Virus record (IMG/VR): IMGVR_UViG_3300005337_000035
Location: 1-36,685 of that record
Reading direction: 5' to 3' (one strand)
From: a virus
DNA length: 36,685 bases
The notes beneath the pieces are model-generated. The model had not been told where the DNA came from and searched no databases. It worked only from the letters and a program-made list of their open reading frames with translations. Below, piece by piece: positions 1-17,841 of this stretch. The translations under genes and the position numbers were made by a program. The first letter of the stretch is position 1. Each line of letters opens with the position of its first letter.

Positions 1-1
1 G

Positions 2-319
2 GCAGCTGCGCCGGTCGGTGCAAAGGTGATCGACCCTGCCACCCGGCAACGGTGGGACCGGGCCTGGGCTGTTGCGGTACGGGCCGGAAGAGATGTCGCG
101 GAGGTTGTTGATGGGGAAGGGTTGCTTGTGACTTCCCAGCGGCGGACCTTGATTGTGGCGGCGACGTTGCGGGATGCTCAGGTGACACTGTCGCGCCTGG
201 GTGCCTCGGAGGTGATGCGGGCACGGCATGGTCGGGTGCATGGAACGCCGGCTGACATGTTCGGCGCGGTGGAGTTCTGGTTGGAGACCTATCTGAAAGG
301 TGTGACACGTGACGGATGA
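2..319 (+). CDS. Hypothetical protein, 5' partial
   Basis: The reading frame is open to the left edge, so the true start is probably outside the window; the first start codon inside is GTG at 26. The visible part, about 105 residues, is mixed helical with Arg- and Val-rich stretches (WAVAVRAGRDVAEVV, RRTLIVAATLRDAQ) and has no motif I recognise. Its stop (317-319) lies inside the start of the next gene, which indicates translational coupling in a plus-strand operon of small phage genes. Function unknown. Confidence 0.7.
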   Translation, partial: AAAPVGAKVIDPATRQRWDRAWAVAVRAGRDVAEVVDGEGLLVTSQRRTLIVAATLRDAQVTLSRLGASEVMRARHGRVHGTPADMFGAVEFWLETYLKGVTRDG

Positions 320-566
320 AGTGTCATCGGCGAGGCGTAAGCAGTTGGCGTTGACGTTGGCCTACCAGAAGCAGGTGCATTGGGGGGCGGTGTTCCTGGT
401 GCTGGGTGGCCTGGCGATCAGTGGTGCGGTGTGGTGGGGCTGGTCGGGGAAGGCCGTTGGGGCGATGATGTCGCTGGCGGGGATGGCGGCGTTCATGATC
501 GGCATGTGGGTGGGTCGGGCTGCCCAGATCGACGATGACTTCCCGCCGATGAGTGAGGAGTGGTGA
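309..566 (+). CDS. Small two-helix membrane protein
   Basis: 85 residues from a GTG start that overlaps the end of the upstream gene by 11 bases. Two hydrophobic segments (about residues 25-45, rich in V/L/G/W, and 50-69, beginning AVGAMMSLAG) are separated by a short polar turn. A charged N-terminus and an acidic C-terminus (DDDFPPMSEEW) flank them, predicting a hairpin in the membrane. Size and topology would suit a holin-like or superinfection-type protein, but no lysis gene adjoins it and I assign no function. Confidence 0.75.
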   Translation: MTDEVSSARRKQLALTLAYQKQVHWGAVFLVLGGLAISGAVWWGWSGKAVGAMMSLAGMAAFMIGMWVGRAAQIDDDFPPMSEEW

Positions 567-901
567 CGCCGCTGCATGCCCTCCTCGCCCGGGTGGAGCG
601 GGTGCTGCGCTGTGACACTGAAGTGTCATTGGTGGGGGCGGTGAAGGTGGCGTTGGGGCATCCGTCGGATACGGGGATGATGCGGTTGCATCGGGCGGAG
701 CAGCAGCTGATCTTGTCAGTGTTGGAGTGGACGGAGTGGTGGGCGCCTCGGTATGAGGCGGAACCGTTGCCGGTGGACGAGGCGGGTAAGCCGAGCGTTA
801 GTAAGTGGCTACATACCCGGTCTTCCGTGCAAATTGCAGATCTCGTAGGATGGAGGTTGGCGCAGGTCAGCGCCACTAAACGTTCTATCGTCCGGGGATA
901 A
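563..901 (+). CDS. Hypothetical protein
   Basis: 112 residues if translation starts at GTG 563, which forms a GTGA overlap with the previous stop; GTG 560 is the alternative and adds one residue. It is a soluble, mostly helical protein with Trp-rich middle (LEWTEWWAPRYEAEPLPVDEAG). No recognised domain. A TAGGAT box near 848-853 within its 3' end could be a promoter for the next gene, but nothing else supports that. Confidence 0.7.
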   Translation: MTPLHALLARVERVLRCDTEVSLVGAVKVALGHPSDTGMMRLHRAEQQLILSVLEWTEWWAPRYEAEPLPVDEAGKPSVSKWLHTRSSVQIADLVGWRLAQVSATKRSIVRG

Positions 902-904
902 ACC

Positions 905-1483
905 ATGCCCGAAGTATCTCAGATTGAGTGGATTGCCCAACTAGCTAGCGCTTGCGGACTGTGCAGTGCTGTCGCCGGGGTCGGCGGGTATCTGGTTTTC
1001 CGCGAGAACCACCGCCGCAGTCTCAGCGATGAGAAGCGGTTGAAGGAGGAGCGGCTGGCCAACGAGGCGAAGCTCCTCGCCGCTGTCCGCGCCGCCCAAG
1101 TGTCACCAGGTCCCGTCGATGTGATCTGGACGGCGGAGAAGGCGACGGCACCTTACTCCACACAGTCCCGGCCCACCTCACCGGTGCCAGCTTTCGTCCC
1201 GACCTCACCGATCCCCACGTCCGAGGTGTTCACCGCTGCGGCGAGGGACACAACGGAGACGATGGTGAACCCGCCGATGTTTCAGCGGCCGACGCGTCAC
1301 AAGCCGTCACCGTCACCGCTGGCGGACACTGCGGCACGGCTGCGGTGGGCTGACTTCGTAGGGCCGGAGTTGGTGGAGAAGTTGACCACCACCGACGTGC
1401 TGCATTTGGAGACCATCACCGAGGAAGGTGGGGAGGATCGGTCGGCATCCGTCTTCCACGGCTTCCAGCCGGCCACGGCATGA
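905..1483 (+). CDS. Membrane-anchored coiled-coil protein
   Basis: 192 residues, starting at ATG 905 right after the preceding stop. One hydrophobic segment (about residues 12-33, LASACGLCSAVAGVGGYLVF) is followed by a charged heptad-like helix (SDEKRLKEERLANEAKLLAAVRAA). A long low-complexity region rich in Pro, Thr and Ser comes next. This predicts a single-pass membrane protein with a flexible tail. Family unknown. Its TGA stop (1481-1483) is also part of the first copy of the TGATAGTSTGACT promoter. Confidence 0.7.
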   Translation: MPEVSQIEWIAQLASACGLCSAVAGVGGYLVFRENHRRSLSDEKRLKEERLANEAKLLAAVRAAQVSPGPVDVIWTAEKATAPYSTQSRPTSPVPAFVPTSPIPTSEVFTAAARDTTETMVNPPMFQRPTRHKPSPSPLADTAARLRWADFVGPELVEKLTTTDVLHLETITEEGGEDRSASVFHGFQPATA

Positions 1484-1493
1484 TAGTCTGACT
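1481..1493 (+). promoter_or_regulatory. Promoter P1 of small RNA array (extended -10)
   Basis: TGATAGTCTGACT. It contains TG-A-TAGTCT, which fits an extended -10 box with the hexamer at 1484-1489; no -35 box is evident. The TG comes from the stop codon of the upstream gene. The same 13-mer recurs with at most one change at 1592, 1705 and 11389. Expected transcription start is near 1496. Confidence 0.65.
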
Positions 1494-1495
1494 GG

Positions 1496-1582
1496 ACCTC
1501 TCGCTACCGGAATGGCCGAGACGCAAGGATGCCCCGCCCCTGGGGACCGGTTCTAGCCGGGCTGGGGCGGGGCATCTTTCTT
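1496..1582 (+). ncRNA. Candidate small RNA 1 with terminator
   Basis: A short unit of about 87 nt follows promoter P1 and ends in a very strong hairpin. GATGCCCCGCCCC (1528-1540) pairs with GGGGCGGGGCATC (1564-1576), followed by TTTCTT. I see no start codon with a ribosome binding site inside. The internal loop contains a small CCGG/CCGG stem. The 5' end is estimated from the -10 position only. It could be a terminator for the upstream operon alone, but the dedicated promoter after the upstream stop argues for a separate transcript. Confidence 0.55.
1528..1582 (+). terminator. Rho-independent terminator of unit 1
   Basis: A perfect 13-bp GC-rich stem (1528-1540 with 1564-1576) with a 23-nt loop and TTTCTT behind it. 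It also ends transcription arriving from the upstream genes. Confidence 0.8.
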
Positions 1583-1591
1583 CGCCGGGCA

Positions 1592-1604
1592 TGATAGTGT
1601 GACT
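1592..1604 (+). promoter_or_regulatory. Promoter P2 of small RNA array
   Basis: TGATAGTGTGACT, one base different from P1. The -10 hexamer TAGTGT is at 1595-1600 and is preceded by TGA. It lies 111 bases after P1, directly behind the first terminator, so it can serve only the second unit. No -35 box is recognisable. Confidence 0.65.
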
Positions 1605-1606
1605 GT

Positions 1607-1703
1607 GCTTGCTCTCCTGCAAAGCGAAATGGGTAACACCGCGAAGATGCCCCACCTCTATCGGCACACCCTGTTGGGCCCGGTCAGGAGTGGGGCATCT
1701 TTC
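1607..1703 (+). ncRNA. Candidate small RNA 2 with terminator
   Basis: About 97 nt follow P2. A 5' hairpin is possible (GCTTGC with GCAAAGC, one bulge). The unit ends in AAGATGCCCCAC (1644-1655) pairing with GTGGGGCATCTT (1690-1701), with TTTC at 1700-1703. The lower stem GATGCCCC/GGGGCATC is identical to that of unit 1, so the two units are probably duplicates that have diverged. No open reading frame of substance. Confidence 0.55.
1644..1703 (+). terminator. Terminator of unit 2
   Basis: A 12-bp perfect stem (1644-1655 with 1690-1701) enclosing a 34-nt loop that can fold further through a CCC/GGG stem. The T-tract is short. The 3' arm sequence GGGGCATCTTTC is shared with unit 1. Confidence 0.7.
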
Positions 1704-1704
1704 G

Positions 1705-1717
1705 TGATAGTCTGACT
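1705..1717 (+). promoter_or_regulatory. Promoter P3 of small RNA array
   Basis: TGATAGTCTGACT, identical to P1. The -10 hexamer is at 1708-1713. It begins one base after the T-tract of unit 2 and 113 bases after P2, giving a regular repeat period of about 112 bases. Confidence 0.65.
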
Positions 1718-1719
1718 GG

Positions 1720-1843
1720 ACACCACGGAATCTGTCGCATCTAGCGCACGGCCCCGAAACCTGTGCGCCACCCTGCCGGCGAGGGTGACGGTGCGACACC
1801 ACAGCGGCCCCTCCCCTTATGCCAGGGAGGGGCCGCTGCTTTG
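1720..1843 (+). ncRNA. Candidate small RNA 3, three-way junction
   Basis: A 124-nt unit with several nested pairings. TGTCGCA (1733-1739) pairs with TGCGACA (1792-1798) and encloses two hairpins: GCGCACGG (1744-1751) with CTGTGCGC (1761-1768, one GU pair) and CACCCT (1769-1774) with AGGGTG (1782-1787). This is a three-way junction. A terminator hairpin follows at 1803-1837. Such multi-helix agreement is unlikely in spacer DNA. Target unknown. The transcript could continue into the gene at 1860 if the terminator leaks. Confidence 0.6.
1803..1842 (+). terminator. Terminator of unit 3
   Basis: AGCGGCCCCTCCC (1803-1815) pairs perfectly with GGGAGGGGCCGCT (1825-1837) across a 9-nt loop, followed by GCTTTG. 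It isolates the RNA units from the leaderless gene downstream. Confidence 0.75.
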
Positions 1844-1846
1844 TCA

Positions 1847-1852
1847 TAGACT
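1847..1852 (+). promoter_or_regulatory. -10 box for a leaderless gene
   Basis: TAGACT lies exactly 7 bases before ATG 1860. No Shine-Dalgarno precedes that ATG. The spacing predicts transcription starting at the A of the start codon. Confidence 0.5.
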
Positions 1853-1859
1853 CCATACC

Positions 1860-2135
1860 ATGCCTGAGCTGCGCTGCTCCACGCCTGGTTGCCCCGAGAA
1901 GTACGAAGCCCCGGGCAGCCTGGCTAGCGTTGAGTACCGTGCGGGCTTGCACGGCTGGGGCATAGCTGGGATAGTAAGACTGTGCACGGCCCACTCCGGC
2001 AGGAAGAAGATTCGGACACCTGAGCTAACTCACCTGCCCGATCAGCTCCCCCTGTGGGGTGAGGAGGAAACACCGGCGCCAGTGCAGCGACGCCGGCCAC
2101 CGCGCAAAATGCAAGCCAAAGACCACCATGCTTAG
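1860..2135 (+). CDS. Small Cys-containing protein, probably leaderless
   Basis: 91 residues from ATG 1860. The in-frame ORF extends upstream to 1785, but that part lies inside the terminator of RNA unit 3, so the ATG after the TAGACT box is chosen. The N-terminus has a CSTPGC motif and a third Cys in RLCTAHSG, suggesting a small metal-binding knuckle. The C-terminus is basic and Pro-rich (RRRPPRKMQAKDHH). It may bind nucleic acid. Family not recognised. The next gene follows after 11 bases. Confidence 0.65.
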   Translation: MPELRCSTPGCPEKYEAPGSLASVEYRAGLHGWGIAGIVRLCTAHSGRKKIRTPELTHLPDQLPLWGEEETPAPVQRRRPPRKMQAKDHHA

Positions 2136-2146
2136 GGAGGAACAGC

Positions 2147-2560
2147 ATGACCGTCACCACCGACACCCCCGTTGAACTGCTCATCGCCCTCGATGACCGC
2201 CTGGCCCTCATCCAGGAGCTGATCACGCTGCAGGACCAGGAGGAGCGGGTCAAGACCCGCATCGAAGCGATCAAGCGGGAGCTGAAGGCCAGCATCCCCG
2301 TCGGCCACGTCGCCACCGTCGGCGGGGCGCCGATCTACAAGCACTCCCGCACCGACCAGTTCGCCACCGACGTGTTCCGCCGGGCGCACCCCGAATGGCA
2401 CGAGTTCTACCTGCAGCCGGTCGTCAAGCCCACCTTGAACCTCGTGGCTCTACGCGGTGACCTGCCGCAGGTTGATCGGGAGTTCAGCGTCTACAAGTTG
2501 ACCCCGGTCGGCAACCGGGCATCGCTGGCCATGGCCCTCGGGCTGCCGTCGGCCGCATAG
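2147..2560 (+). CDS. Hypothetical coiled-coil phage protein
   Basis: 137 residues. ATG 2147 is preceded by GGGAGGAACAGC, a strong ribosome binding site. Residues about 10-48 form an amphipathic helix (ALDDRLALIQELITLQDQEE and on), then a mixed alpha/beta part (VGHVATVGGAPIYKHSRTDQF, HPEWHEFYLQPVV). The order of a helix then a small domain is common among uncharacterised phage recombination or replication accessory proteins. A nuclease gene follows directly. I do not recognise the family. Confidence 0.75.
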   Translation: MTVTTDTPVELLIALDDRLALIQELITLQDQEERVKTRIEAIKRELKASIPVGHVATVGGAPIYKHSRTDQFATDVFRRAHPEWHEFYLQPVVKPTLNLVALRGDLPQVDREFSVYKLTPVGNRASLAMALGLPSAA

Positions 2561-2586
2561 TCGCACCCCGGTGGCATGATCGGCAT

Positions 2587-2964
2587 GTGACAGCAGCTAG
2601 CAACAAAGCCAAGGGACGCAACTGGGAAACCAGCTGCGTCTCTTGGCTTATCGAGCATGGATATCCGTTCGCGGAGCGGCGCCGGCTGACCGGTGCCCAA
2701 GATAAAGGTGACATCGCCGGGGTTCCTGGCGTCGTGTGGGAGTGCAAATCGTCCCGCACCTACTCCCTGCCACAGTGGGTCCGTGAAGCCGAGGTGGAAC
2801 GGGCTAACGATGGGGTTCCCGTGGGGCTAGTGTGGGCGAAGCAGAACGGTAAGACTGATCCAGGGCAGGGGTTCATCGTGATGACACCGCTGGTGGTGGT
2901 GAACCTGCTGCAGCGTGCCGGCCATGTCTCCGCGCCGCACTGGGAGCGGTTGACACCGGGCTGA
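2587..2964 (+). CDS. PD-(D/E)xK nuclease, Holliday-junction-resolvase-like
   Basis: 125 residues. The order KGRNWE (E14), DKGDI (D42), VVWECK (E52, K54) matches the active site of PD-(D/E)xK nucleases, and the overall layout resembles archaeal Hjc-type resolvases and small phage nucleases. Likely substrate is branched or replicating phage DNA (inference). The start is GTG 2587 without a convincing Shine-Dalgarno. CATGAT at 2575-2580, six bases upstream, may be a -10 box for a leaderless message. Length is normal for small single-domain members of the fold. Confidence 0.75.
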   Translation: MTAASNKAKGRNWETSCVSWLIEHGYPFAERRRLTGAQDKGDIAGVPGVVWECKSSRTYSLPQWVREAEVERANDGVPVGLVWAKQNGKTDPGQGFIVMTPLVVVNLLQRAGHVSAPHWERLTPG

Positions 2965-3118
2965 TGCTCAGCCACACTCACATCCAGACCAGGCCGCAGG
3001 GTGTTACATGGGCGTCGCGCTGGCATGGCGCTCACCTTTCCGCCCATCAAGGCAGCCCGTCAGCAGCCACTGACAGATAGCTGCCTGCACCCTGCGGCCA
3101 CCCAACAGAAGGAAACGC

Positions 3119-3469
3119 ATGCTCATCGAAGACAAGTGGACCAAGTCGACCAAGTCTGCAGCCAACGGCCAATGCCTCGAGGCCAAGTGGACCAAGGCCA
3201 CCGCATCCAGCGGCAGCGGCCAGTGCGTGGAGGCGAAGGTCAACGACGCTGGGCTCGTAGCCGTCCGGGACTCCAAAGACCCCCAGGGCCCGGTGCTGCT
3301 GTTCACCCCCGACGAATGGGAAGCGTTCCTCGACGGGGCAAAGAAGGGCGAGTTCGACCTGCCCTACGAGGCGATCGTCGACCCGGCAGTCCTCGCCGCC
3401 GTGGACTCCGCGCTCACCGTGCCCACGGCTGAATGGGTACGTCGCGAACGGCCAGCCGAAGTAGCCTGA
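3119..3469 (+). CDS. DUF397 domain protein with duplicated N-terminal motif
   Basis: 116 residues from ATG 3119, with GAAGGAAACGC before it. It shows the DUF397 signature: W-x-KS...SGQCVEA, then VAVRDSKDPQGPVLLFTPDEW and AFLDGAKKGEFDL. The first part of the motif occurs twice (KWTKSTKSAANGQCLEA and KWTKATASSGSGQCVEA). In Streptomyces, DUF397 proteins are typically encoded beside XRE regulators of the WhiJ type and take part in developmental control. Here no such long XRE partner adjoins it. In a phage it may act on host regulators (inference). Confidence 0.85.
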   Translation: MLIEDKWTKSTKSAANGQCLEAKWTKATASSGSGQCVEAKVNDAGLVAVRDSKDPQGPVLLFTPDEWEAFLDGAKKGEFDLPYEAIVDPAVLAAVDSALTVPTAEWVRRERPAEVA

Positions 3470-3475
3470 TATAGC
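3470..3475 (+). promoter_or_regulatory. -10 box directly after DUF397 stop
   Basis: TATAGC follows the TGA stop (3467-3469) at once, giving TG-A-TATAGC, an extended -10 arrangement. A structured RNA segment begins within the next 10 bases. Confidence 0.4.
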
Positions 3476-3477
3476 TT

Positions 3478-3570
3478 GGCCGCGCGGCGTCAAGGCGGGT
3501 TTCTCAAGTGTCCCGCCAAGGACCCACCATGACCCCTCAGAATAGGTCCGGGTACCTGCGCCGCGCGGCC
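3478..3570 (+). ncRNA. Structured leader or small RNA with three-way junction
   Basis: GGCCGCGCGGCG (3478-3489) and CGCCGCGCGGCC (3559-3570) are perfect inverted repeats 69 bases apart. Between them lie GGCGGG (3494-3499) pairing with CCCGCC (3512-3517) and GGACC (3520-3524) pairing with GGTCC (3545-3549). Together they give a closed three-way junction upstream of the small membrane gene at 3594. No T-tract follows, so a 5' leader or cis-regulatory element is more likely than a terminator. It matches no riboswitch class I recognise. Confidence 0.45.
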
Positions 3571-3593
3571 TCCCCACCAACCAAAGGATCCAC

Positions 3594-3728
3594 ATGAAGC
3601 ACCGCATCGAGCACGCCGTCACGAAGATCAAACCAGGCAGCCCCGAACCCCTCGGCATCATCGTTGCGATGCTCATGCTGTTCGGCATCATCATCGCCGT
3701 CGTCGTCACAACGATCAGCCTGCTATAG
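3594..3728 (+). CDS. 44-residue single-span membrane protein
   Basis: ATG 3594 to TAG 3728, preceded by AAAGGATCCAC. The protein starts with a charged helix (MKHRIEHAVTKIKPGSPEP) and continues with one long hydrophobic segment (about residues 19-44) rich in Ile, Val and Leu, ending ISLL. The next gene starts at the base after the stop, so the pair is coupled. The structured element 3478-3570 would lie in its 5' leader. Function unknown; small phage membrane proteins may act in lysis control or exclusion. Confidence 0.7.
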   Translation: MKHRIEHAVTKIKPGSPEPLGIIVAMLMLFGIIIAVVVTTISLL

Positions 3729-4010
3729 ATGGCCACCTCCCGGCAGATCGCCATCGCCGACCACACCTACACTCAGCCCCCCGACGTTGACAAACAGCTC
3801 AGCATCAAAGGGGCGCCGAAGAAATGGACCGGCGCGGAACTCCTCCACACCAAAGCGAAGCTGAAGAAACTCCTCGAAGGCGACGACGACCTGCTGCAGA
3901 CCGTCCTGGAAATGCTGCACCTCAACCGGAACTTCGAAGACGGCGAAACCTACAGTCTGCGATCAGACCTGCCCGGCCGGCACAAAGGCCACCCTGTGCC
4001 GAAGAAGTAG
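3729..4010 (+). CDS. Hypothetical protein
   Basis: 93 residues from ATG 3729, adjacent to the previous stop. Lys-rich helical protein (SIKGAPKKWTGAELLHTKAK) with an acidic patch (EGDDDLL) and a polar C-terminus ending PVPKK. No motif recognised. Last plus-strand gene of the left block; transcription meets the minus-strand genes just beyond it. Confidence 0.65.
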   Translation: MATSRQIAIADHTYTQPPDVDKQLSIKGAPKKWTGAELLHTKAKLKKLLEGDDDLLQTVLEMLHLNRNFEDGETYSLRSDLPGRHKGHPVPKK

Positions 4011-4035
4011 CGGGCGTCCGATTTGCACGGCGCCT

Positions 4036-4052
4036 CGGGGTTATGGGCCCCG
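4036..4052. terminator. Weak hairpin between convergent genes
   Basis: CGGGG (4036-4040) and CCCCG (4048-4052) form a short stem with a 7-nt loop in the 49-base gap between convergent genes. There is no T-tract, so it would be a weak terminator at best. Confidence 0.35.
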
Positions 4053-4059
4053 CGTGGTA

Positions 4060-4278
4060 CTACTCCACCACGCCCGCGATGAAAGCCTCCAGAGTCATCG
4101 GCAGCAGGCTCAACGTGAACGAGTCTAACGGAACTTCGAGCAGCAGCGCGATGGCGTCGCGGGCCATGAACTCCACCTCAGCGAGACTCCGCGCCTGAGT
4201 GTGGCAGCCCTTCAGTTCCGGGATGCGCACCGCCCACCAGTCACCCTGCTTGCAGCATTCCACCTGGTAGTTGTTCAC
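4060..4278 (-). CDS. HicB-like antitoxin-family protein (orphan)
   Basis: 72 residues from GTG 4278, preceded by GGGGAGGAACGCA. The sequence follows the HicB N-terminal fold: a beta-strand, GDWWAVRIPELKGCHTQARS, then a helix (LAEVEFMARDAIALLLEVP). In HicAB toxin-antitoxin pairs this RNase-H-like fold neutralises the HicA mRNase. No HicA-sized gene with its conserved His is next to it, and no DNA-binding C-terminus is present. It may be a free antitoxin used against a host HicA, or a repurposed family member (inference). Confidence 0.75.
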   Translation of the reverse strand: MNNYQVECCKQGDWWAVRIPELKGCHTQARSLAEVEFMARDAIALLLEVPLDSFTLSLLPMTLEAFIAGVVE

Positions 4279-4432
4279 TGCGTTCCTCCCCTACCCACTC
4301 CCGCTGCCACGAGCGGGTTTCGATGCGTCGAGTGCGACGCCGCCACCCCTTGGCGCCGCGCTTCCCGTCCGGAACGCAGCAGCCATACCTGCAGCCCTCC
4401 ACGCGGTTACACCGCGCCGACATCTTTCCCAT
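4241..4432 (-). CDS. Small Cys/Arg-rich protein (uncertain)
   Basis: 63 residues if translated from ATG 4432 (or 60 from 4423, which has GGGAAAG nearby). Four Cys in CNRVEGCRYGCC and a strongly basic middle (KGWRRRTRRIETRSWQREW) resemble many small phage proteins. It overlaps the upstream gene by 26 bases and the HicB-like gene by 38, which lowers confidence, but otherwise 4279-4406 would be empty. Confidence 0.4.
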   Translation of the reverse strand: MGKMSARCNRVEGCRYGCCVPDGKRGAKGWRRRTRRIETRSWQREWVGEERSEQLPGGMLQAG

Positions 4433-4766
4433 GGCTAGCTAGCTTAGCGGCGCCGATCAGCTTCCGCTTCCCCCTGTTGCGGTGCGGAGCAAGCGGTAGG
4501 GAGAACGGCACACCCTTCGCCTTCGCCCGGATCAGAGCATTCGTCGCCACATCCTGCGCCAGCTGCCCGGCGGCATGCCGATCCCTACCCCGGCAGCGCA
4601 GGCGCATCTGCAACACGTTCCCGCCCAGCGCCGCACTGGTCACATCCCATGAGATCATATCCACGTGCTCGGCATACCAGGTGAGGACCGCAGTCAGCTG
4701 CCGGCGGGTCCACTCTACTTCGCGGCCTGGTGTCACCGTCCACCAGAAATCCCTAGTCGCCACCAT
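4407..4766 (-). CDS. Hypothetical protein
   Basis: 119 residues from ATG 4766; ATG 4775 is three codons further upstream. The start overlaps the end of the preceding gene by 14 bases. Mixed alpha/beta sequence with VEWTRRQLTAVLTWYAEHV and a basic C-terminus (HRNRGKRKLIGAAKL). No family recognised. It lies in the minus-strand run that leads from the lysis genes. Confidence 0.6.
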   Translation of the reverse strand: MVATRDFWWTVTPGREVEWTRRQLTAVLTWYAEHVDMISWDVTSAALGGNVLQMRLRCRGRDRHAAGQLAQDVATNALIRAKAKGVPFSLPLAPHRNRGKRKLIGAAKLASHGKDVGAV

Positions 4767-6834: not shown

Positions 6835-9225
6835 CTAGAAGTAGGTGACGATGATGATGGCGCCAGCCGCACCCGCACCGCCGGCACCAGAGTTATTTCC
6901 GTTAAGCGATGCACCACCGCCTCCACCGCCACCGCCGTACGTGCCCCCGGCGCCGCCCGCTCCTGCGACGCCGGTAATGGAACCTGCGCCGCCGCCGCCG
7001 CCATTGCCGCCGTTAACGCCGAGGGCTGATTTCCCGGCGCCGCCGGAACCGCCAGGTTGGGCACCCGCCGTGCCTCTAGTTTGATCGAGTAGGGCCGTAA
7101 CCCCGCCCGCTCCGCCCGAACTTGGCGAATCACCGTTAGTAATCCCACCGCCACTAGCCCCTGCGGCTGCGCCACCGTTCGCGTCAGGGCCAACAACGCC
7201 AGTACCTCCCGTGACAGATGCCGCCGCGCCGCCCGCACCGCTAAACATCGCAAATGCCGACCCGCCGCCAAGTCCGGTCGCGTTGGTGCCACCCGAACCA
7301 GCGCCACCTCCCGCAGCTCGAACCCGGCTAGCAGAGGTGGCGGTTGCCACGGTGTCGTTAAAAACGCTCGCCCCACCCCCGGTTCCTGGAAATCCGTCAT
7401 TGTTGTCTGCGGTTTGAACCGCACCGCCCGAACCCGCTCCGCCAACGCTGTAGGGAACGGAACTAGGCAGCGCACTGGCCGGCATCAGTGCGCGGCTCCA
7501 CCCGCCGCCAGCACCACCACCGCCGCCACATCGAACCGACAGCGCTGCACCACGTCGACCCGATCCACCACCACCACCGCCACCAACAACGGTCACGTCA
7601 ACCAGCGTGGCCCCGGTCGGCTTCGACCAGTTGCCAGACGCGCCGCCGACGATGACATCGATTTGCGGCGATCCGCTGGATACCCAGTTGCCGGGTGTGC
7701 CGCCTGCGGTGCAGTACCAGATCCGGCCGTTGACATCCTGAACGGTGTCGGAGGTGGCCCAGGTGCCGGTGGTCGGTGGGCCTGCCGTGGCTCCGCGCCC
7801 ACGTAGCTGGGTTTTGCTAGTTGAATTTTTTCCACCAATGTCGGCACCGCCGTCAATGGTGGTAAGGGCTAGTCCCGTGCTCCCGGTAAGAACATTGAAA
7901 GAAACGACATCATTTGAGTTCCGAATTTGGAACTGTTTAGCACTTGCTGTGGTAAACAGGGCAAGTGCCGCACTTGCTCCCGTGGCAACCTGCTTGAACA
8001 CCCATGGTTGTTCGGTGTCGAAGTAAAGCAACCAAGTGCCATCAGTGGGCGTAGTCGGATCAATCTTCAGCTGTGCCGTGGCACCCGATGCCGCAGCGGC
8101 GATGGTCTGATATCCGGACCACGTCTTATCCCCGGCGGCGGTTTGCGTGCCAACCAGGTTGACGGTGCCGGTTACCCAGGTGCCGGGGGTGCCTCCAACG
8201 GTGCACAGCCACCACACACCGTTGACGTCGAGGACCAGGTCGAATTGCGCCCACGTGTTGGCGATGGGCGCACCGGCGGTGGTCGTTTTCCCCGCGAACC
8301 GCAGGTTGACGTTGCTGTTCTTGGCACCCAATGCGGCAACGCCGGCTGCGTCGATGCTGCCGGTGCCGGTAAATACGGCACCAGATGAGAATGTGGCCTG
8401 GTCGGACCAGGTCTTCGCTCCAGCGGCGGTTTGGATGCCGGTCAGGTAGACGACCGTGTTGGCTTGGGGGACCTGGTTTGCTCCGGTGCCGAATTCGACG
8501 CTGACGGTGACGTTTCCGGTGGCGCTGGACACGTCGATGCCGATGCCGGCGATGATGCTGGTGACGATGCCTGCGGTGATGGCATCGATCTCTGCTTGGA
8601 GGGCTGCGTCAGCTGCCGCCCTGGCTGCAGCTTCGGCGGTGATGTTGTTCTGCAGCACCAGGTCGGCGGCGATGCGCGCCGCCACTTCGGTGTCGATGTT
8701 GCCTTGCAGGAGGATGTCGGCGGCGATCCGCGCGGCTTCCTCGGCGTCGAGGTTGCCTTGGAGCACGAGGTCTGCGGCGATGCGGTCGGCGATTTCTTGC
8801 AGGATCTGCGCCTCGAGGGTGGCGACTTCTTCCTGGCTGGCGCAGGTGACGATGTCACATTCGGTGGGGTCGGTGACCGGGTTCACGTCGGCGAGGTCGA
8901 CTGTTGCTCCCAGCGATGACGGGAACTGGTAGTCGTTCGAGGTGAACGTGGCGTCGGTGAGGGTAGCGGAGACTGCGTATGCCCAGCTGGGGCTGCCGAC
9001 GTAGTAGCTGGGGTCGGTGACAAGCAGTACGACGCTGAAGGCACCGTTGGCATCGAGGGTGGCGGTGAACGACTGCCTCGGCAGGATGGTGTTGTCGGCG
9101 GCGACGCGCAGCTGTGGGGAGGCGAAGGTGATGGTGCCGGCGGCCGGGGCTCCTGCGGATAGCCCGGTCTGCTTGTAGAAGGTGCCGGTGACGGTGATCG
9201 TCGGCACGGATGCTGGGAGTGGCAT
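6835..9225 (-). CDS. Glycine-rich tail fibre / receptor-binding protein
   Basis: 796 residues from ATG 9225, preceded by GGGGAGGGAGA. N-terminal beta domain (about 1-125), then a repetitive coiled coil (about 130-215) with repeats of the form ARIAADLVLQGN, then two copies of a beta module containing GTPGxWV with WYCTAGG or WWLCTVGG. The C-terminal 260 residues are extremely Gly-rich (VGGGGGGGSGRRG, GGAGGAGAAGAIIIVTYF). This layout is typical of trimeric fibres of actinophages and fits host-surface binding at the tail tip. The second glycine-rich gene at 19576 shares the terminal style. Both could be acceptors for the sugar enzymes encoded between them (inference). Confidence 0.85.
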   Translation of the reverse strand: MPLPASVPTITVTGTFYKQTGLSAGAPAAGTITFASPQLRVAADNTILPRQSFTATLDANGAFSVVLLVTDPSYYVGSPSWAYAVSATLTDATFTSNDYQFPSSLGATVDLADVNPVTDPTECDIVTCASQEEVATLEAQILQEIADRIAADLVLQGNLDAEEAARIAADILLQGNIDTEVAARIAADLVLQNNITAEAAARAAADAALQAEIDAITAGIVTSIIAGIGIDVSSATGNVTVSVEFGTGANQVPQANTVVYLTGIQTAAGAKTWSDQATFSSGAVFTGTGSIDAAGVAALGAKNSNVNLRFAGKTTTAGAPIANTWAQFDLVLDVNGVWWLCTVGGTPGTWVTGTVNLVGTQTAAGDKTWSGYQTIAAAASGATAQLKIDPTTPTDGTWLLYFDTEQPWVFKQVATGASAALALFTTASAKQFQIRNSNDVVSFNVLTGSTGLALTTIDGGADIGGKNSTSKTQLRGRGATAGPPTTGTWATSDTVQDVNGRIWYCTAGGTPGNWVSSGSPQIDVIVGGASGNWSKPTGATLVDVTVVGGGGGGGSGRRGAALSVRCGGGGGAGGGWSRALMPASALPSSVPYSVGGAGSGGAVQTADNNDGFPGTGGGASVFNDTVATATSASRVRAAGGGAGSGGTNATGLGGGSAFAMFSGAGGAAASVTGGTGVVGPDANGGAAAGASGGGITNGDSPSSGGAGGVTALLDQTRGTAGAQPGGSGGAGKSALGVNGGNGGGGGAGSITGVAGAGGAGGTYGGGGGGGGASLNGNNSGAGGAGAAGAIIIVTYF

Positions 9226-9240
9226 TCTCCCTCCCCACGT

Positions 9241-9257
9241 GTAGTCAGCCTACCTAT
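9241..9257 (-). promoter_or_regulatory. Promoter/operator A for the tail-fibre operon
   Basis: GTAGTCAGCCTACCTAT on the plus strand, that is -10 TAGGCT on the minus strand at 9252-9247. The same 17 bases occur at 12734-12750. With the following bases it forms an imperfect inverted repeat (CAGCCTAC, spacer CTATC, GTAGCTG) similar to the perfect one at 27000-27022. Leader to the fibre ATG is about 15 nt. Confidence 0.6.
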
Positions 9258-9304
9258 CGTAGCTGCCGACGATCATGCGGTTGTGGGGAATGGCGGAGGA
9301 TAGT

Positions 9305-9317: not shown

Positions 9318-9683
9318 ATGACGACGAATGGTGACCTGGTTCAGGGTCAAAATGGCGATGAGATGGTGTCGTATGCCACGTTGGTGGGTGCCCGGGTGCG
9401 GCATTTGCGGGTGCGGCGGCGCATGTCCCTGGTGGAGGTGTCAGGCCTGGCACGGGAAGCCGGGTGGGAGATTTCCCTTGATTCCGTGTCGAAGATTGAG
9501 ACGGGGGCGCGGGTCAATGTCAGCGTCGATGAGTTGATGGCGCTGGCGAAGGTGTTCAACCGGGAGCCGATCTGGTTCCTCACCAACCTGCCGATGTGCG
9601 ACAACTGCGGCGATGATCCGCCGCAAGGGTTCGAATGCGTGAAGTGCTACCGGCGGTGGGCCGGCGCTCCGAGCCCGTTCTGA
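9318..9683 (+). CDS. XRE regulator with C-terminal zinc knuckle
   Basis: 121 residues from ATG 9318. The helix-turn-helix spans about 20-75 (VGARVRHLRVRRRMSLVEVS, then SLDSVSKIETGARV, then DELMALAKVFN). A CDNC...CVKC pair close to the C-terminus (about 94-110) suggests a bound zinc ion. It is divergent from the tail-fibre operon, so it may control promoter A and its own expression (inference). The ORF could be read from further upstream, but the -10 box placement favours this ATG. Confidence 0.8.
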   Translation: MTTNGDLVQGQNGDEMVSYATLVGARVRHLRVRRRMSLVEVSGLAREAGWEISLDSVSKIETGARVNVSVDELMALAKVFNREPIWFLTNLPMCDNCGDDPPQGFECVKCYRRWAGAPSPF

Positions 9684-11287: not shown

Positions 11288-11391
11288 ACTTCGTCTGCGA
11301 GCACTGCAAGGCTGAACCGCACGACTTCCGGCCGAAGGAGTGCCCCGGCGGGACGCGGTGTGACTGCCGGCATCGGCAGCCGAAGCAGTGA
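11284..11391 (+). CDS. 35-residue Cys/His mini-protein
   Basis: ATG 11284 overlaps the previous stop and the frame ends with TGA 11389-11391. CEHC near the N-terminus and CPGGTRCDCRH near the C-terminus give five Cys and several His, enough for one zinc site. Very small, so the case rests on the ATGA coupling and the Cys pattern. Its stop codon supplies the TG of the downstream extended -10 promoter. Confidence 0.6.
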   Translation: MNFVCEHCKAEPHDFRPKECPGGTRCDCRHRQPKQ

Positions 11392-11401
11392 TAGTCTGAC
11401 T
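11389..11401 (+). promoter_or_regulatory. Promoter P4, fourth copy of TGATAGTSTGACT
   Basis: TGATAGTCTGACT, identical to P1 and P3 nearly 10 kb away. -10 hexamer at 11392-11397, start expected near 11404. Followed directly by an inverted repeat (GGTGGCGG 11405-11412 with CCGCCACC 11441-11448), which would form a 5' hairpin in the transcript. Confidence 0.65.
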
Positions 11402-11454
11402 ATCGGTGGCGGCATGCGGACCGGGCACGCCGGGCTGGCACCGCCACCGCTCAA

Positions 11455-11544
11455 GGGGACGGAACGGTCCTGCCGCGCTTGATCGGCGCGGCAGCGGATG
11501 CCTGATCAGCATCTGCGTCCGGGGTTCGATTCCCCGGGTCTCCA
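11455..11544 (+). ncRNA. tRNA/tmRNA-like RNA with G3-U70 and perfect T arm
   Basis: A canonical T arm (CGGGG, TTCGATT, CCCCG at 11520-11536) is followed by GGTCTCC and discriminator A (11544). GGGGAC (11455-11460) can pair with GTCTCC, including a G3-U70 wobble, the alanine identity element. The D arm is missing; in its place is GAACGGT, close to the start of actinobacterial tmRNA, which in M. tuberculosis (from memory) begins GGGGCUGAACGGUUU. Two perfect hairpins follow: a 9-bp stem (11470-11478 with 11486-11494, loop TTGATCG) and an 8-bp stem with one GU pair (11494-11501 with 11509-11516, loop CTGATCA). Position 7 with 66 is a G-G mismatch and CCA is not encoded. It may be a reduced tmRNA-like domain, a decoy, or an aberrant tRNA. 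Confidence 0.5.
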
Positions 11545-11570
11545 CGTAAGCCGGTCCCAGTCAGACCAGG

Positions 11571-11601
11571 AAAAGGTGCACCTTGAAGGGGTGCACCTTT
11601 T
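11571..11601. terminator. Bidirectional terminator
   Basis: AAAAGGTGCACC (11571-11582) pairs with GGTGCACCTTTT (11590-11601). A-tract before and T-tract after make it work in both directions: for the tRNA-like RNA on the plus strand and for the glycosyltransferase gene on the minus strand. Confidence 0.9.
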
Positions 11602-11602
11602 C

Positions 11603-12721
11603 TTATGCGCCGATCAGTGTCTTGCTCCCCACCAGCGGCGCCCCGTGCTCGATGTCGTAGGCGTACTGCCAGGCCTCCATCCACCGCCAGGCGTGCAGTT
11701 CAGCGGTCTGCGTCTCCGCGTAGGCGTGCCCGGCTGCACCTAGTTCCCGGCGCAGGCTGGGATTTTCGATCAGGTCCTTGGTGTACCGGTACCACTGCTT
11801 CGGCTTCTCGGCGAGGATCCCACCGCCGCTGGCCGCAGTGATCCGGGCGTACTCCGGTAGCGGGGACGCGATGTAGGGCACGCTGACCGCACTCATCTCC
11901 AAACACTTCAGCCTGGACTTGGCTGCATTGAAACGAGTGTTCGACAGCGGCGCCCAGCCCACTCCCAACCTCGCCACCGTAGACGCCCAATGCTTCATCG
12001 AGCAGGCACCGGTGGCTTTCATCCGAGCCAGCCCCAGCTGCCGGGCAACCTCCTCCTCATACGGTCCGGCCTGCAGAAACTGGTAGCCGTCGTTTTCAAG
12101 GCGCTGCGCGGCGAATCCGGTGACCATCAGATCGTCGGGGTGGGTTTCGATGCTGCCGGGCCAGCCGAATGTCGGGGAATCCACGTGCCCCATGGACAGG
12201 TAGACCTCGGGGATGTAGTTGTCCAGGACAATGCACCGGCCGGGTTTGCCGTACACCTTCACCAGGGCTTCGGTGCTGACCGTCATCAAGGTGACACCTT
12301 CCGCCGCGACCCGGTTCGCTTCCCACGTGTACGGAGAGTCGGACTTGGGGTGCAGGTTGATGTACGCCTTGTTGGACGGGTGGATGCAGGTGAAGTCGTC
12401 GTCGGCGTCCATCACTACCGTGTAGCCGGCCTGGCGGAGCAGGGGTATCGCGGCGGCGTGGACAGGGTTGACGACCCGCTGGAAGACCAGCACGTCCGCT
12501 TCGGGGCCCTGGACCTTGGTGACCTTGCCGGAGGTGTCGGCGAACACCTTGATCGGCATCGGCTTGTCGGGATCGTGGATGGTGATGTCGTAGCCGAGTT
12601 CCTGCAGATACAGGCCGGCGTGCACAAGGCGGTAGCGGCCACAGCCCCCAAGATCAGCGGGCAGAATGTGTACCTTTAGCCTATCTGCCATTAGTATGCC
12701 CGATTTGCTGGATGCTGTCAA
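11603..12721 (-). CDS. GT-B (GT4-like) glycosyltransferase
   Basis: 372 residues if started at TTG 12721, which follows GGGAGACG; the alternative ATG 12691 begins the domain directly (MADRLKVHILPADLGGCGRYR) but lacks a ribosome binding site. The N-terminal Rossmann part contains HILPADLGGCGRYRLVHAG. The C-terminal part has FNAAKSRLKCLEMSAVSVPY, then GGILAEKPKQWYRYTKDLIE and LRRELGAAGHAYA, the typical GT4 nucleotide-sugar binding region. It probably adds a sugar to a virion protein, phage DNA or host glycan. It is divergent from the epimerase gene and shares its control region. Confidence 0.8.
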   Translation of the reverse strand: MTASSKSGILMADRLKVHILPADLGGCGRYRLVHAGLYLQELGYDITIHDPDKPMPIKVFADTSGKVTKVQGPEADVLVFQRVVNPVHAAAIPLLRQAGYTVVMDADDDFTCIHPSNKAYINLHPKSDSPYTWEANRVAAEGVTLMTVSTEALVKVYGKPGRCIVLDNYIPEVYLSMGHVDSPTFGWPGSIETHPDDLMVTGFAAQRLENDGYQFLQAGPYEEEVARQLGLARMKATGACSMKHWASTVARLGVGWAPLSNTRFNAAKSRLKCLEMSAVSVPYIASPLPEYARITAASGGGILAEKPKQWYRYTKDLIENPSLRRELGAAGHAYAETQTAELHAWRWMEAWQYAYDIEHGAPLVGSKTLIGA

Positions 12722-13641: not shown

Positions 13642-13731
13642 TAGGCTAGTTCTGCGCTAGGCAACCAGCTGCACTGCTTGCCCATGTTGGTTCTTGAAGG
13701 CCCACCGTCGCCTCCCCTTCGGTGGGCCTTC
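13642..13731 (+). ncRNA. Possible small RNA between epimerase and terminator
   Basis: TAGGCT (13642-13647) begins right after the stop codon TAG (13639-13641). A transcript from about 13654 would hold a GGCAA/TTGCC hairpin (13661-13682) and end at the strong terminator. No open frame of substance. The arrangement copies that of the other small RNA units, but the -10 context differs, so it may simply be the 3' UTR of the epimerase gene. Confidence 0.3.
13696..13731. terminator. Bidirectional terminator
   Basis: GAAGGCCCACCG (13696-13707) pairs perfectly with CGGTGGGCCTTC (13720-13731), loop of 12. It lies between convergent genes and overlaps the stop codon of the minus-strand XRE gene by two bases. 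Confidence 0.85.
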
Positions 13732-14068
13732 AGCCATTCAGCAGGTCGCACACCTGCGTGCCGGTGACCTGGGCAATGTCTTGCAGGGTGCCGATGGAGA
13801 CGCCCTGCTTGCCGGATTCCAGGTTGGTGATCGTTCCCCTGGTGCGCTTGATCGCGGCGGCCAGGTCAACCTGGCGCATCCCTGCCGCGAGGCGCGCCTG
13901 GCGCACGTTGATGTGCAGGCGCGGGAAGCGGTTGTGCGTGTCTGCGGGGAACGAGTCGTACGGGTCCCGCTGGCTGCTGCGGACCGGGTCGGTGCGGTCA
14001 ACTGGTTGTACCGTAACAATATCTTCTGCTGCAATAGTTGCTGGTACAACAAACGGGTTAGGGATCAT
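13730..14068 (-). CDS. XRE regulator
   Basis: 112 residues from ATG 14068, preceded by GGGAGGCCCT; an in-frame ATG at 14095 is rejected because that site would be wasted. N-terminal 45 residues are disordered-looking. The C-terminal half is a helix-turn-helix: LHINVRQARLAAGMRQVDLA, AIKRTRGTITNLESGKQGVS, then a helix ending in QVCDLLNG. Its own TAGGAT promoter lies upstream, which separates it from the long sugar operon. It may regulate the glycosylation genes (inference). Confidence 0.8.
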   Translation of the reverse strand: MIPNPFVVPATIAAEDIVTVQPVDRTDPVRSSQRDPYDSFPADTHNRFPRLHINVRQARLAAGMRQVDLAAAIKRTRGTITNLESGKQGVSIGTLQDIAQVTGTQVCDLLNG

Positions 14069-14098
14069 AGGGCCTCCCAGCCTTAGGTTTGTCACACC

Positions 14099-14124: not shown

Positions 14125-14409
14125 CTAGTCGCAGTCCACATCTTCGGCGTCGGCGAAGAAGCTGAAACTGACCTGCATCCGCAGGCCCAACCCGGCCGCC
14201 CAGTGCTCCGCTTTGCGGATCGACATGTTGCCACGGGACTGCTCCATCGCATAGACCGCGTCGTGGCTGACCGGCGGATCCATGGCCTCCCCGACTTCCC
14301 GCTGCGTCATGCCGAGCAGCTCCCGATGCCGCGTCAGCATGCGGCGCACCTCATCGGTCAACTCCCCCACCGGGAACGGTGGCGGCCCCTGCGCCTTCCT
14401 CCACACCAT
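14125..14409 (-). CDS. Mini-XRE regulator
   Basis: 94 residues from ATG 14409, overlapping the stop of the upstream glycosyltransferase gene by one base (TGATG). The helix-turn-helix covers about 22-75: EVRRMLTRHRELLGMTQREV, HDAVYAMEQSRGNMSIRKAE. A hydrophobic strand (LGLRMQVSFSFF) and an acidic tail follow. The strand after the fold is shared with the genes at 10769, 27105 and 27340. The ORF can be read into the upstream gene, but coupling defines the start. Confidence 0.8.
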   Translation of the reverse strand: MVWRKAQGPPPFPVGELTDEVRRMLTRHRELLGMTQREVGEAMDPPVSHDAVYAMEQSRGNMSIRKAEHWAAGLGLRMQVSFSFFADAEDVDCD

Positions 14410-15008
14410 CAAGCATCCCCTTGGCCGGGCTTGCCGGAAGAGTTCATGCCGTGCAGGTGCCACTTCCAGGTGCGTTCTGGCAGGTGGGTGATGTGGTGGT
14501 TCCACTGCACCGCATACTCCGACATGCGCAGCACGAAGATCCAGTCATCGTTCAAGCAGGCCGCCGTGGCACCTTCGCCTGCGGTGGGGAAGCCGCCGGC
14601 CGCGATGGCGGCGCCCCTTCGAACCATGACCGTGGTGGTGGTGTGGTGCGGTGTCGCCGGGTTGAACGGCTTACCGAAGTGCCCCGACTTGGCAAAGGGG
14701 TCCGGGCCGCCGACGGGTTCAAACCACGAGTAGGCCAGGATGCAGTCAAGATCGGCATCCATGACCTGCTCCAGTTTCTGCAGGTGGGTGGGGAGGAACT
14801 CGTCATCACTGTCGAGAAGTGCCACGTACCTGCCCGAAGCTGCCCGCAGCCCTTTCTGCTTCGCCCACCCGGCGCCCCGGCGTTCCGTGTCGAGGATGAC
14901 GATCACTTCATCCGGCTGCCTGGTCTGGCTGCGCACCGAAGCTAATGCCCGGTCAAGCATCCGGCCCACCCTTGCGGGGTGGGCCGGGATTACAACGCTG
15001 ATAGTCAC
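14409..15008 (-). CDS. GT2 family glycosyltransferase
   Basis: 199 residues from GTG 15008. Classic GT-A start (TISVVIPAHPARVGRMLDRA, SVRSQTRQPDEVIVI) and the metal-binding D66-S-D68-D69 in YVALLDSDDEFLP. GGFPTAGEGATAACLNDDW gives the acceptor-side acidic residues. Shorter than many GT2 enzymes but the core is complete. It is followed directly by an XRE gene. Donor and acceptor unknown. Confidence 0.85.
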   Translation of the reverse strand: MTISVVIPAHPARVGRMLDRALASVRSQTRQPDEVIVILDTERRGAGWAKQKGLRAASGRYVALLDSDDEFLPTHLQKLEQVMDADLDCILAYSWFEPVGGPDPFAKSGHFGKPFNPATPHHTTTTVMVRRGAAIAAGGFPTAGEGATAACLNDDWIFVLRMSEYAVQWNHHITHLPERTWKWHLHGMNSSGKPGQGDA

Positions 15009-16750: not shown

Positions 16751-17443
16751 TTACTTCAAATGGTGGCCGAGGTGTGTCCAGGAGTCTTCTCCGTCGTGCC
16801 ACGGCAGCCGATAATCCCACCTATCAGCCTGGCTAGCAAGGTGGAGGAGGACGGGCAGGCTGACCTGGTCCTGGTGGCTGCGGGTGATGCACTCCCACCA
16901 CCAGTCACCCATCAACTTGTCGACCCATTCCACCCCGTTGCGACGGATATAGAAGCCGGTGGCGATCAGGCCGAAGTGGTCGGGGTGCCCGATCCCTGCA
17001 TAGTAGGCAGACTGGGCAAGGATGTGCGGGGCTTCATCGGCGTACCGTGGCAGCAGCGAAGAGTAGGCCGCTTCGTCGTAGATGCAGTCACGCCACGGAT
17101 GGCGCATCACCGCCAGGTCCAGGTCCGCGATGGCGGCGATGCATTTACCAATGAACCATGGACCCTCTTCGGTGATCGTCATCGAAGCATCCAGCCAGAT
17201 CGTCGTGTCGAATTCGCCCAGCCCGGCATGCATCTTCCAGAACTTGTGGTTCAGCATCGGCCCGGTCCGCTCCGGCTTGCCGAGCAGCGTCGCGATGCTG
17301 TGCTGCGCCACCCGCACCTCCCAACCGGGCGCTTTCAGGTTCGGATCATCGGTGTACATGATCGCCGGGCACGGCAGGTCATGGGGCAGCGGCGGTGCAT
17401 CGTTGTAGCCGCCGTAGATCGCCGAATAGATAGCGATACTCAC
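16751..17443 (-). CDS. DUF616/TOD1-like glycosyltransferase
   Basis: 230 residues from GTG 17443 (GTGA overlap). IYSAIYGGYND (5-15), MYTDDPNLKAPGWEV (29-43), LNHKFWKMH (64-72), the metal-binding-type WLDAS (83-87) and HPWRDCIYDEAAY match the pattern of DUF616 proteins, predicted GT-A glycosyltransferases. These enzymes usually act on surface or protein-linked sugars. It is coupled to an XRE gene. Acceptor unknown. Confidence 0.75.
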   Translation of the reverse strand: MSIAIYSAIYGGYNDAPPLPHDLPCPAIMYTDDPNLKAPGWEVRVAQHSIATLLGKPERTGPMLNHKFWKMHAGLGEFDTTIWLDASMTITEEGPWFIGKCIAAIADLDLAVMRHPWRDCIYDEAAYSSLLPRYADEAPHILAQSAYYAGIGHPDHFGLIATGFYIRRNGVEWVDKLMGDWWWECITRSHQDQVSLPVLLHLASQADRWDYRLPWHDGEDSWTHLGHHLK

Positions 17444-17841
17444 CGCTGCCCTTTCCGCTTCGAAGGCTTCTTCCGGGTCTTGCGGGGAGTGTCGCGCGTC
17501 GCTTCCCGGCGGGCAGCGGCCTGCACCATCGCCGGGTTGCGTCGCCGCTCCTCATCGGACTCGTCGACCCACATCCGCACATCGGTCAGGTAGGGAGTCA
17601 TGGTGAACTCGAACCTGACGATCTCGGCATACTGCAGGAACCGGTAGAACGGGATGTTGCCGCCGTTCTCCCAGTACCCGATGGTTGACGCGGCGACAGT
17701 GCTGGTCGGGGTCGACATGTAGCGGGCCACGGCAGCCTGCGACATGCCCAGCTCGATACGCCGGTTACGCAGGGCGTCGATGAAGCCGGCGGCCAGCTCC
17801 TCGTAGGCGAAGTCGTTCAACGGCTCCAGTGGCTGTGTCAT
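17440..17841 (-). CDS. XRE regulator with basic tail
   Basis: 133 residues from ATG 17841, overlapping the methyltransferase stop (ATGA). The helix-turn-helix spans about 20-75 (GFIDALRNRRIELGMSQAAV, ASTIGYWENGGNIPFYRFLQ). A strand (RFEFTMTPYL) and a long, very basic tail (RDTPRKTRKKPSKRKGQR) follow, which may add non-specific DNA contact. It lies inside the sugar operon. Confidence 0.8.
   Translation of the reverse strand: MTQPLEPLNDFAYEELAAGFIDALRNRRIELGMSQAAVARYMSTPTSTVAASTIGYWENGGNIPFYRFLQYAEIVRFEFTMTPYLTDVRMWVDESDEERRRNPAMVQAAARREATRDTPRKTRKKPSKRKGQR

Follow-up and report, generated by a model that had tools for sequence, protein, structure and literature searches.

Paired long-span inverted repeats ahead of two start codons in a probable actinophage fragment: a candidate RNA leader module

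What is the long-span inverted repeat that stands ahead of a tiny predicted membrane-protein gene in this viral DNA: a leader belonging to the gene that follows, the 3' end of the gene before it, a binding site for a protein, or an accident of base composition? The window, by which we mean the whole stretch analyzed, comprises the 36,685 bases of an IMG/VR virus record, has a GC content of 64% and is probably a phage fragment. Its major capsid protein (32855-34579, minus strand) matches the capsid of Actinoplanes phage phiAsp2 at 46.5% identity with 65% of the length covered, and the other capsid matches are mostly to Mycobacterium, Gordonia, Microbacterium and Arthrobacter phages; because of these matches to phiAsp2 and to phages of mostly actinobacterial hosts, the window is, judged by its sequence, an actinobacterial tailed phage. 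Plus-strand genes at 1-4010 meet minus-strand late genes, and a tRNA-Met (CAT) lies at the junction of the two gene blocks (4009-4077, minus strand; ARAGORN; Rfam tRNA, 43.7 bits). The plus-strand order is RusA-like resolvase, element A, DUF397 ORF, element B, 44-aa membrane ORF and 93-aa ORF, where B is the repeat that raised the question and A a second one described below; the operon holding both is taken as early. Its relevant genes are as follows.

2587-2964, plus strand: RusA-like resolvase ORF, upstream of element A (PHROG 244, E 2e-25)
3119-3469, plus strand: ORF of 116 aa with a DUF397 domain (Pfam PF04149, E 2.4e-25)
3594-3728, plus strand: ORF of 44 aa with one hydrophobic segment, a predicted tiny membrane protein without family

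The DUF397 ORF stands apart from any XRE gene in the window, and separate XRE-type HTH ORFs of the same phage lie at 9318-9683, 13730-14095, 14125-14505 and 17440-17841. According to excerpts of a study of Streptomyces, DUF397 and XRE genes are often adjacent pairs in that genus (PMC8269248).

The initial annotation had described a perfect 12-bp inverted repeat, preceded by a -10 box, that closes a junction with two inner stems ahead of the gene at 3594, and had taken it for a leader or riboswitch-like element rather than a terminator. The repeat is as claimed, its arms at 3478-3489 and 3559-3570 being exact reverse complements, and the element ends 23 nt before the 44-aa ORF. Element B and its surroundings comprise the following features.

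3467-3477, plus strand: weak extended -10-like TGATATAGC, without a -35 (from the sequence)
3478-3489, plus strand: closing stem, 5' arm (GGCCGCGCGGCG), exact complement of 3559-3570
3494-3517, plus strand: inner stem 1, GGCGGG/CCCGCC with a 12-nt loop (minimum-energy fold)
about 3519-3557, plus strand: predicted inner stem 2 (minimum-energy fold; pairing unlike that first proposed)
3529-3597, plus strand: possible 22-codon uORF inside B, with its own AAGGA at 3518-3522 and a stop TGA at 3595-3597 that overlaps the ATG at 3594
3559-3570, plus strand: closing stem, 3' arm, exact reverse complement of 3478-3489
3571-3593, plus strand: unpaired C/A-rich segment with Shine-Dalgarno AAGGA at 3584-3588, followed by the ATG at 3594 (from the sequence)

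The predicted RNA fold of 3467-3594 reaches -54.0 kcal/mol, where shuffles average -40.7 (z -4.0, 0 of 200 as good), and trimming to 3478-3593 gives z -5.1, again with none of 200 shuffles as good. This significance comes from the closing stem, because, folded by itself, the interior does not stand out clearly from chance (z -1.35, 19 of 200 shuffles). The segment 3571-3602 folds at about 0 kcal/mol, leaving the ribosome-binding segment of B unpaired. The first inner stem is exactly as originally drawn (3494-3499/3512-3517), but the second, although present as a 5-bp complement, gives way to another pairing in the minimum-energy fold. The supposed -10 box fares less well: TGATATAGC amounts at most to an extended -10, it has no -35, and no promoter with a -35 and -10 passed a scan of 1400-4200. 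Were transcription to start at 3482, a site that the weak -10 could imply, the fold would be at z -2.34, with 4 of 200 shuffles as good.

A repeat search of 1-4500 and a long-span repeat scan revealed a second perfect 12-bp inverted repeat, at 2992-3003/3088-3099, which the initial annotation had overlooked. It lies ahead of the DUF397 ORF, with 19 nt between its end and the ATG at 3119, and is arranged as follows.

2992-3003, plus strand: element A closing stem, 5' arm (GGCCGCAGGGTG), exact complement of 3088-3099
3004-3087, plus strand: interior with two inner stems (interior fold z -2.5, 1 of 200 shuffles)
3088-3099, plus strand: closing stem, 3' arm
3100-3118, plus strand: unpaired segment with AAGGA at 3109-3113, followed by the ATG at 3119 (from the sequence)

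The whole of element A folds at z -3.87 (0 of 200 shuffles), and 3100-3127 at about 0 kcal/mol, so that here too the ribosome-binding segment is unpaired. Both elements might be chance inverted repeats in GC-rich DNA, a reading to which the base composition, the failure to find conservation elsewhere and the near-chance interior fold of B lend something. Against it stands the excess of such repeats over shuffled sequence. Perfect arms of at least 12 with a span of 60-140 occur three times in the whole window (shuffle mean 0.34; 0 of 200 shuffles reach three) and twice within 1481-4020, a number reached by 0 of 1000 shuffles. B, moreover, has a twin at a nearly equal distance from a start, and we regard chance as highly improbable. 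Across 323 kb made up of the window, phiAsp2 and four relatives, 33 repeats with arms of at least 11 and a span of 60-140 were found, of which eight were flagged near a possible start; only A and B have this motif and anatomy.

The two elements share more than their position. Both closing stems begin with GGCCGC and consist of 12 Watson-Crick pairs plus a thirteenth T-G pair; both enclose two inner stems, and in both CCTGC leads into the 3' arm. Downstream of each, an unpaired, C/A-rich segment containing CCAAC and AAGGA leads to the ATG. Nine of the 12 closing-stem pairs are identical between A and B, and the other three differ with both partners exchanged (A-T/G-C, G-C/C-G and T-A/C-G). Since A and B were both found as inverted repeats, these paired changes are supportive rather than independent proof. 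One of 1000 shuffles matches the alignment score of the whole leaders, 0 of 1000 that of the 3' arm together with the ribosome-binding segment, and 4 of 1000 that of the ribosome-binding segment by itself; the interiors show no sequence likeness above chance (423 of 1000 shuffles). A MAFFT alignment of A and B misplaced the 5' arms. The arm motif GGCCGCNNGGNGT...GCNCCNNGCGGCC, a pattern written after both copies had been seen, has two occurrences in the window and none in 100 shuffles. A and B appear to be homologous copies.

Such repeats might instead serve at the DNA level, bound by a protein of phage or host as operators or stoperator-like sites, with no part played by RNA structure. The 10-bp palindrome GCCGCGCGGC within each B arm, with 3479 and 3560 as its only positions in the window, is what such a site could look like; several XRE-type HTH proteins are encoded in the window, and dyad repeats before start codons are described for other actinophages in the excerpted accounts (PMC4351075, PMC7302621). 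The arms of A, however, are not palindromic, there are two sites only, and the arms of A and B match at 9 of 12 positions while their pairing is kept. That base pairing rather than sequence is maintained around a long structured interior points to RNA and not to a DNA-binding site, and we consider a purely DNA-level role very unlikely.

We favor, at roughly even odds (about 0.5), a reading of A and B as a pair of diverged copies of a single start-associated intercistronic RNA leader module, which would act post-transcriptionally in an early operon of this actinophage. On a polycistronic mRNA, each element would fold into the 13-pair closing stem with its two inner stems, and the folded element would end about 20 nt ahead of the start codon, the AAGGA segment staying open. 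If the RNA is made and folds in this way, it would most likely act in cis after transcription, separating neighboring cistrons from one another (insulation), giving the downstream message a protected and possibly nuclease-processed 5' end, and offering ribosomes a clean landing site in the exposed AAGGA segment. Processing, stability or translation of the downstream message may each be affected.

The original preference for a leader over a terminator had been argued from the lack of a T-tract after the stem. There is indeed none, the sequence after 3570 being TCCCCACC, but by itself this is a weak argument against a terminator in actinobacteria, because many strong actinobacterial 3'-end hairpins lack one, as excerpts from Streptomyces work indicate (PMC8269248). 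The preference itself is better supported by the second copy before a start codon, by the closing stem kept with paired changes, by the unpaired ribosome-binding segment and by an interior of 69-84 nt, which far exceeds a terminator loop. The first rival to the leader reading assigns both elements to the 3' ends of the genes before them, as either U-less or I-shaped terminators or 3'-processing hairpins, whose site before the next start is incidental; we place it first because such 3' ends are frequent in Streptomyces, the excerpted S. clavuligerus data giving 353 U-poor against 182 U-rich 3' ends (PMC8269248). Strong GC stems without a T-tract do lie directly after the resolvase and DUF397 ORFs, and B folds well on both strands (minus strand z -3.0, 1 of 200 shuffles). 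Yet the 69-84 nt enclosed compare with short loops at the mapped 3' ends in that source (PMC8269248), the phage's own other hairpins at 1525-1845 do carry T-containing tails, and the likeness between A and B takes in the downstream ribosome-binding segment. The scan, moreover, finds no promoter between either element and its downstream gene. We judge the 3'-end reading unlikely. As for a canonical intrinsic terminator, a short-loop GC hairpin with a T run, a scan of 1400-4200 gave no such site on the plus strand.

The other half of the original proposal, a riboswitch-like element, found no support, given that Rfam was empty in A and B, that the interiors share no sequence beyond chance level and that no alternative fold hiding the start site was seen. 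The Rfam 15 scan of the whole window at gathering threshold gave no match in A or B, and at permissive thresholds the stretch 1400-3800 yielded no more than two hits, both sub-threshold and both outside A and B; it is the permissive result that carries weight, because the gathering scan missed the tRNA at 4009-4077, which in permissive mode scored above its gathering score.

Element B could also work as a translational-coupling device, in which ribosomes translating the uORF at 3529-3597 would open the closing stem and be handed on to the membrane-protein gene. The AAGGA of this uORF is six bases ahead of its ATG, and shuffling the gap 2000 times produced a uORF with a Shine-Dalgarno sequence and a stop within 4 nt of the start in only 27 cases; the junction that follows, TAGATG at 3726-3731 after the 44-aa ORF, is likewise tight. 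The uORF peptide is putative, however, the main ribosome-binding site is open already, and a search of A by the same criteria found no counterpart, all of which makes coupling quite unlikely. An extension of the leader reading, which we offer with low confidence, is that the three-way junction defines a phage-specific family of leader RNAs, read by a phage or host factor, that would switch the DUF397 regulator and the tiny membrane protein jointly; its interior would be free to diverge, its closing stem would be kept by paired changes, and further copies would lie in the part of the early region that this fragment lacks.

Other structured segments occur in the window. At 1477-1850 (plus strand) there are three tandem units without ORFs, each combining a promoter-like TGATAGT[C/G]TGACTG (1481, 1592 and 1705) with a strong downstream hairpin whose tail contains T (1525-1579, 1644-1701 and 1795-1845). 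The units, which are possible phage small RNAs, fold at z -2.3, -3.9 and -6.3; the third, which also has a three-way junction at about 1731-1799, is more strongly folded than element B. In 11389-11610 (plus strand), a fourth near-copy of the promoter-like motif (TGATAGTCTGACTA) precedes a folded segment (z -3.7). One part of this segment, 11455-11545, resembles a tRNA-like cloverleaf that has an extra arm (T-arm CCGGGGTTCGATTCCCCGG) and comes before a hairpin with a T-run; for the cloverleaf neither ARAGORN nor Rfam made a call; its tRNA-like 3' part had short-piece matches only, in 3 of 50 relatives. The third perfect 12-bp long-span repeat of the window, at 9195-9275, lies across the start of a 796-aa minus-strand ORF and also upstream of a plus-strand HTH ORF, where GGATAGTTAGGCTG at 9298 resembles the promoter-like motif. 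We also considered a mobile element with terminal repeats as the source of A and B and rejected it, there being no target-site duplication by eye and the arms differing by paired changes.

Relatives of the phage were collected by an alignment-based capsid search that returned 80 related records, 50 of which were searched whole. DNA of the A/B region recurs in 7 of these 50, only within DUF397, a domain present in 19 of them. A pattern joining the 3' arm to the ribosome site was found in none of the 50, nor was the upstream promoter-like motif, nor were the 44-aa and 93-aa ORFs, which had no match in phages either (an apparent match of the 93-aa ORF to L004 was dropped, since it covered 14 residues only). 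Twenty DUF397 loci of relatives, read with strand set over the 200 nt ahead of the start, had no stem of at least 9 pairs ending near the start; two of them (L141 and L159) are the same gene copy, and one locus (L152) has a 9-bp repeat ending 77 nt upstream of the start. No such leader follows the RusA-like gene in the relatives L005-L012. In phiAsp2, the nearest annotated phage by capsid, the intergenic gaps inspected hold promoters and hairpins and not this element, one of them (L015, 8051-8124) having a hairpin with a 12-bp closing stem that encloses the ribosome site. Wider searches gave the same picture: the exact 22-base start of B had no match in IMG/VR, where the arm pattern retrieved 16 stretches, all inside open frames and none with fully paired arms; a tightened arm pattern run over 84,980 species genomes retrieved 20, all in open frames (by script) and with 1-3 of 12 arm positions unpaired. 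Compared as DNA, phage records had no match to A or B and plasmid records none to B. Because these searches found no relative carrying it, the element appears, on present sequences, to be private to this phage so far.

Several known systems invite comparison. In the early mRNA of phage T7, intercistronic RNase III sites are structured segments between the early genes of one long message. A and B likewise lie between presumed early genes, but their stem layout differs. The put antiterminator RNAs of phage HK022 are two related two-hairpin RNAs whose sites follow promoters and precede terminators, whereas A and B stand directly before genes and downstream of the hairpins at 1525-1845. Together with 5'-end stabilizers, these systems suggest by analogy possible ways of working, and are not families to which A and B would belong.

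Unexplained start-associated repeats, SAS/ESAS among others, recur in actinophage genomes. The dyads of Cluster EG Microbacterium phages and Cluster O mycobacteriophages are, in the excerpted accounts, likewise repeated, many of them in short intergenic gaps near starts, but they keep an identical 17-18 bp sequence, as suits protein binding, whereas A and B keep their pairing while the sequence shifts (PMC7302621, PMC4351075). The SAS/ESAS of Cluster K mycobacteriophages are inverted repeats, phage-specific, that directly precede the ribosome-binding sites of some of the non-structural genes (PMC3203893), with similar motifs in Microbacterium Cluster EF phages (PMC7302621). As excerpted, SAS is a conserved 13-bp GGGATAGGAGCCC, in its EF form GGGAAAGGACCCC, at the ribosome-binding site, and ESAS consists of imperfect repeats of about 17 bp with a spacer of mostly 4-13 bp, in many copies (PMC3203893, PMC7302621). 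A and B are similarly repeated ahead of starts in one genome, in two copies, but their arms are perfect 12-bp repeats 69 and 84 nt apart that enclose inner stems, and they have no SAS consensus, the segments before 3119 and 3594 being CCAACAGAAGGAAACGC and CCAACCAAAGGATCCAC. Because two of the three defining features tested thus differ, we do not file A and B as SAS/ESAS; they are closest in kind to the Cluster K ESAS, yet are not ESAS, and represent a variant of that general kind.
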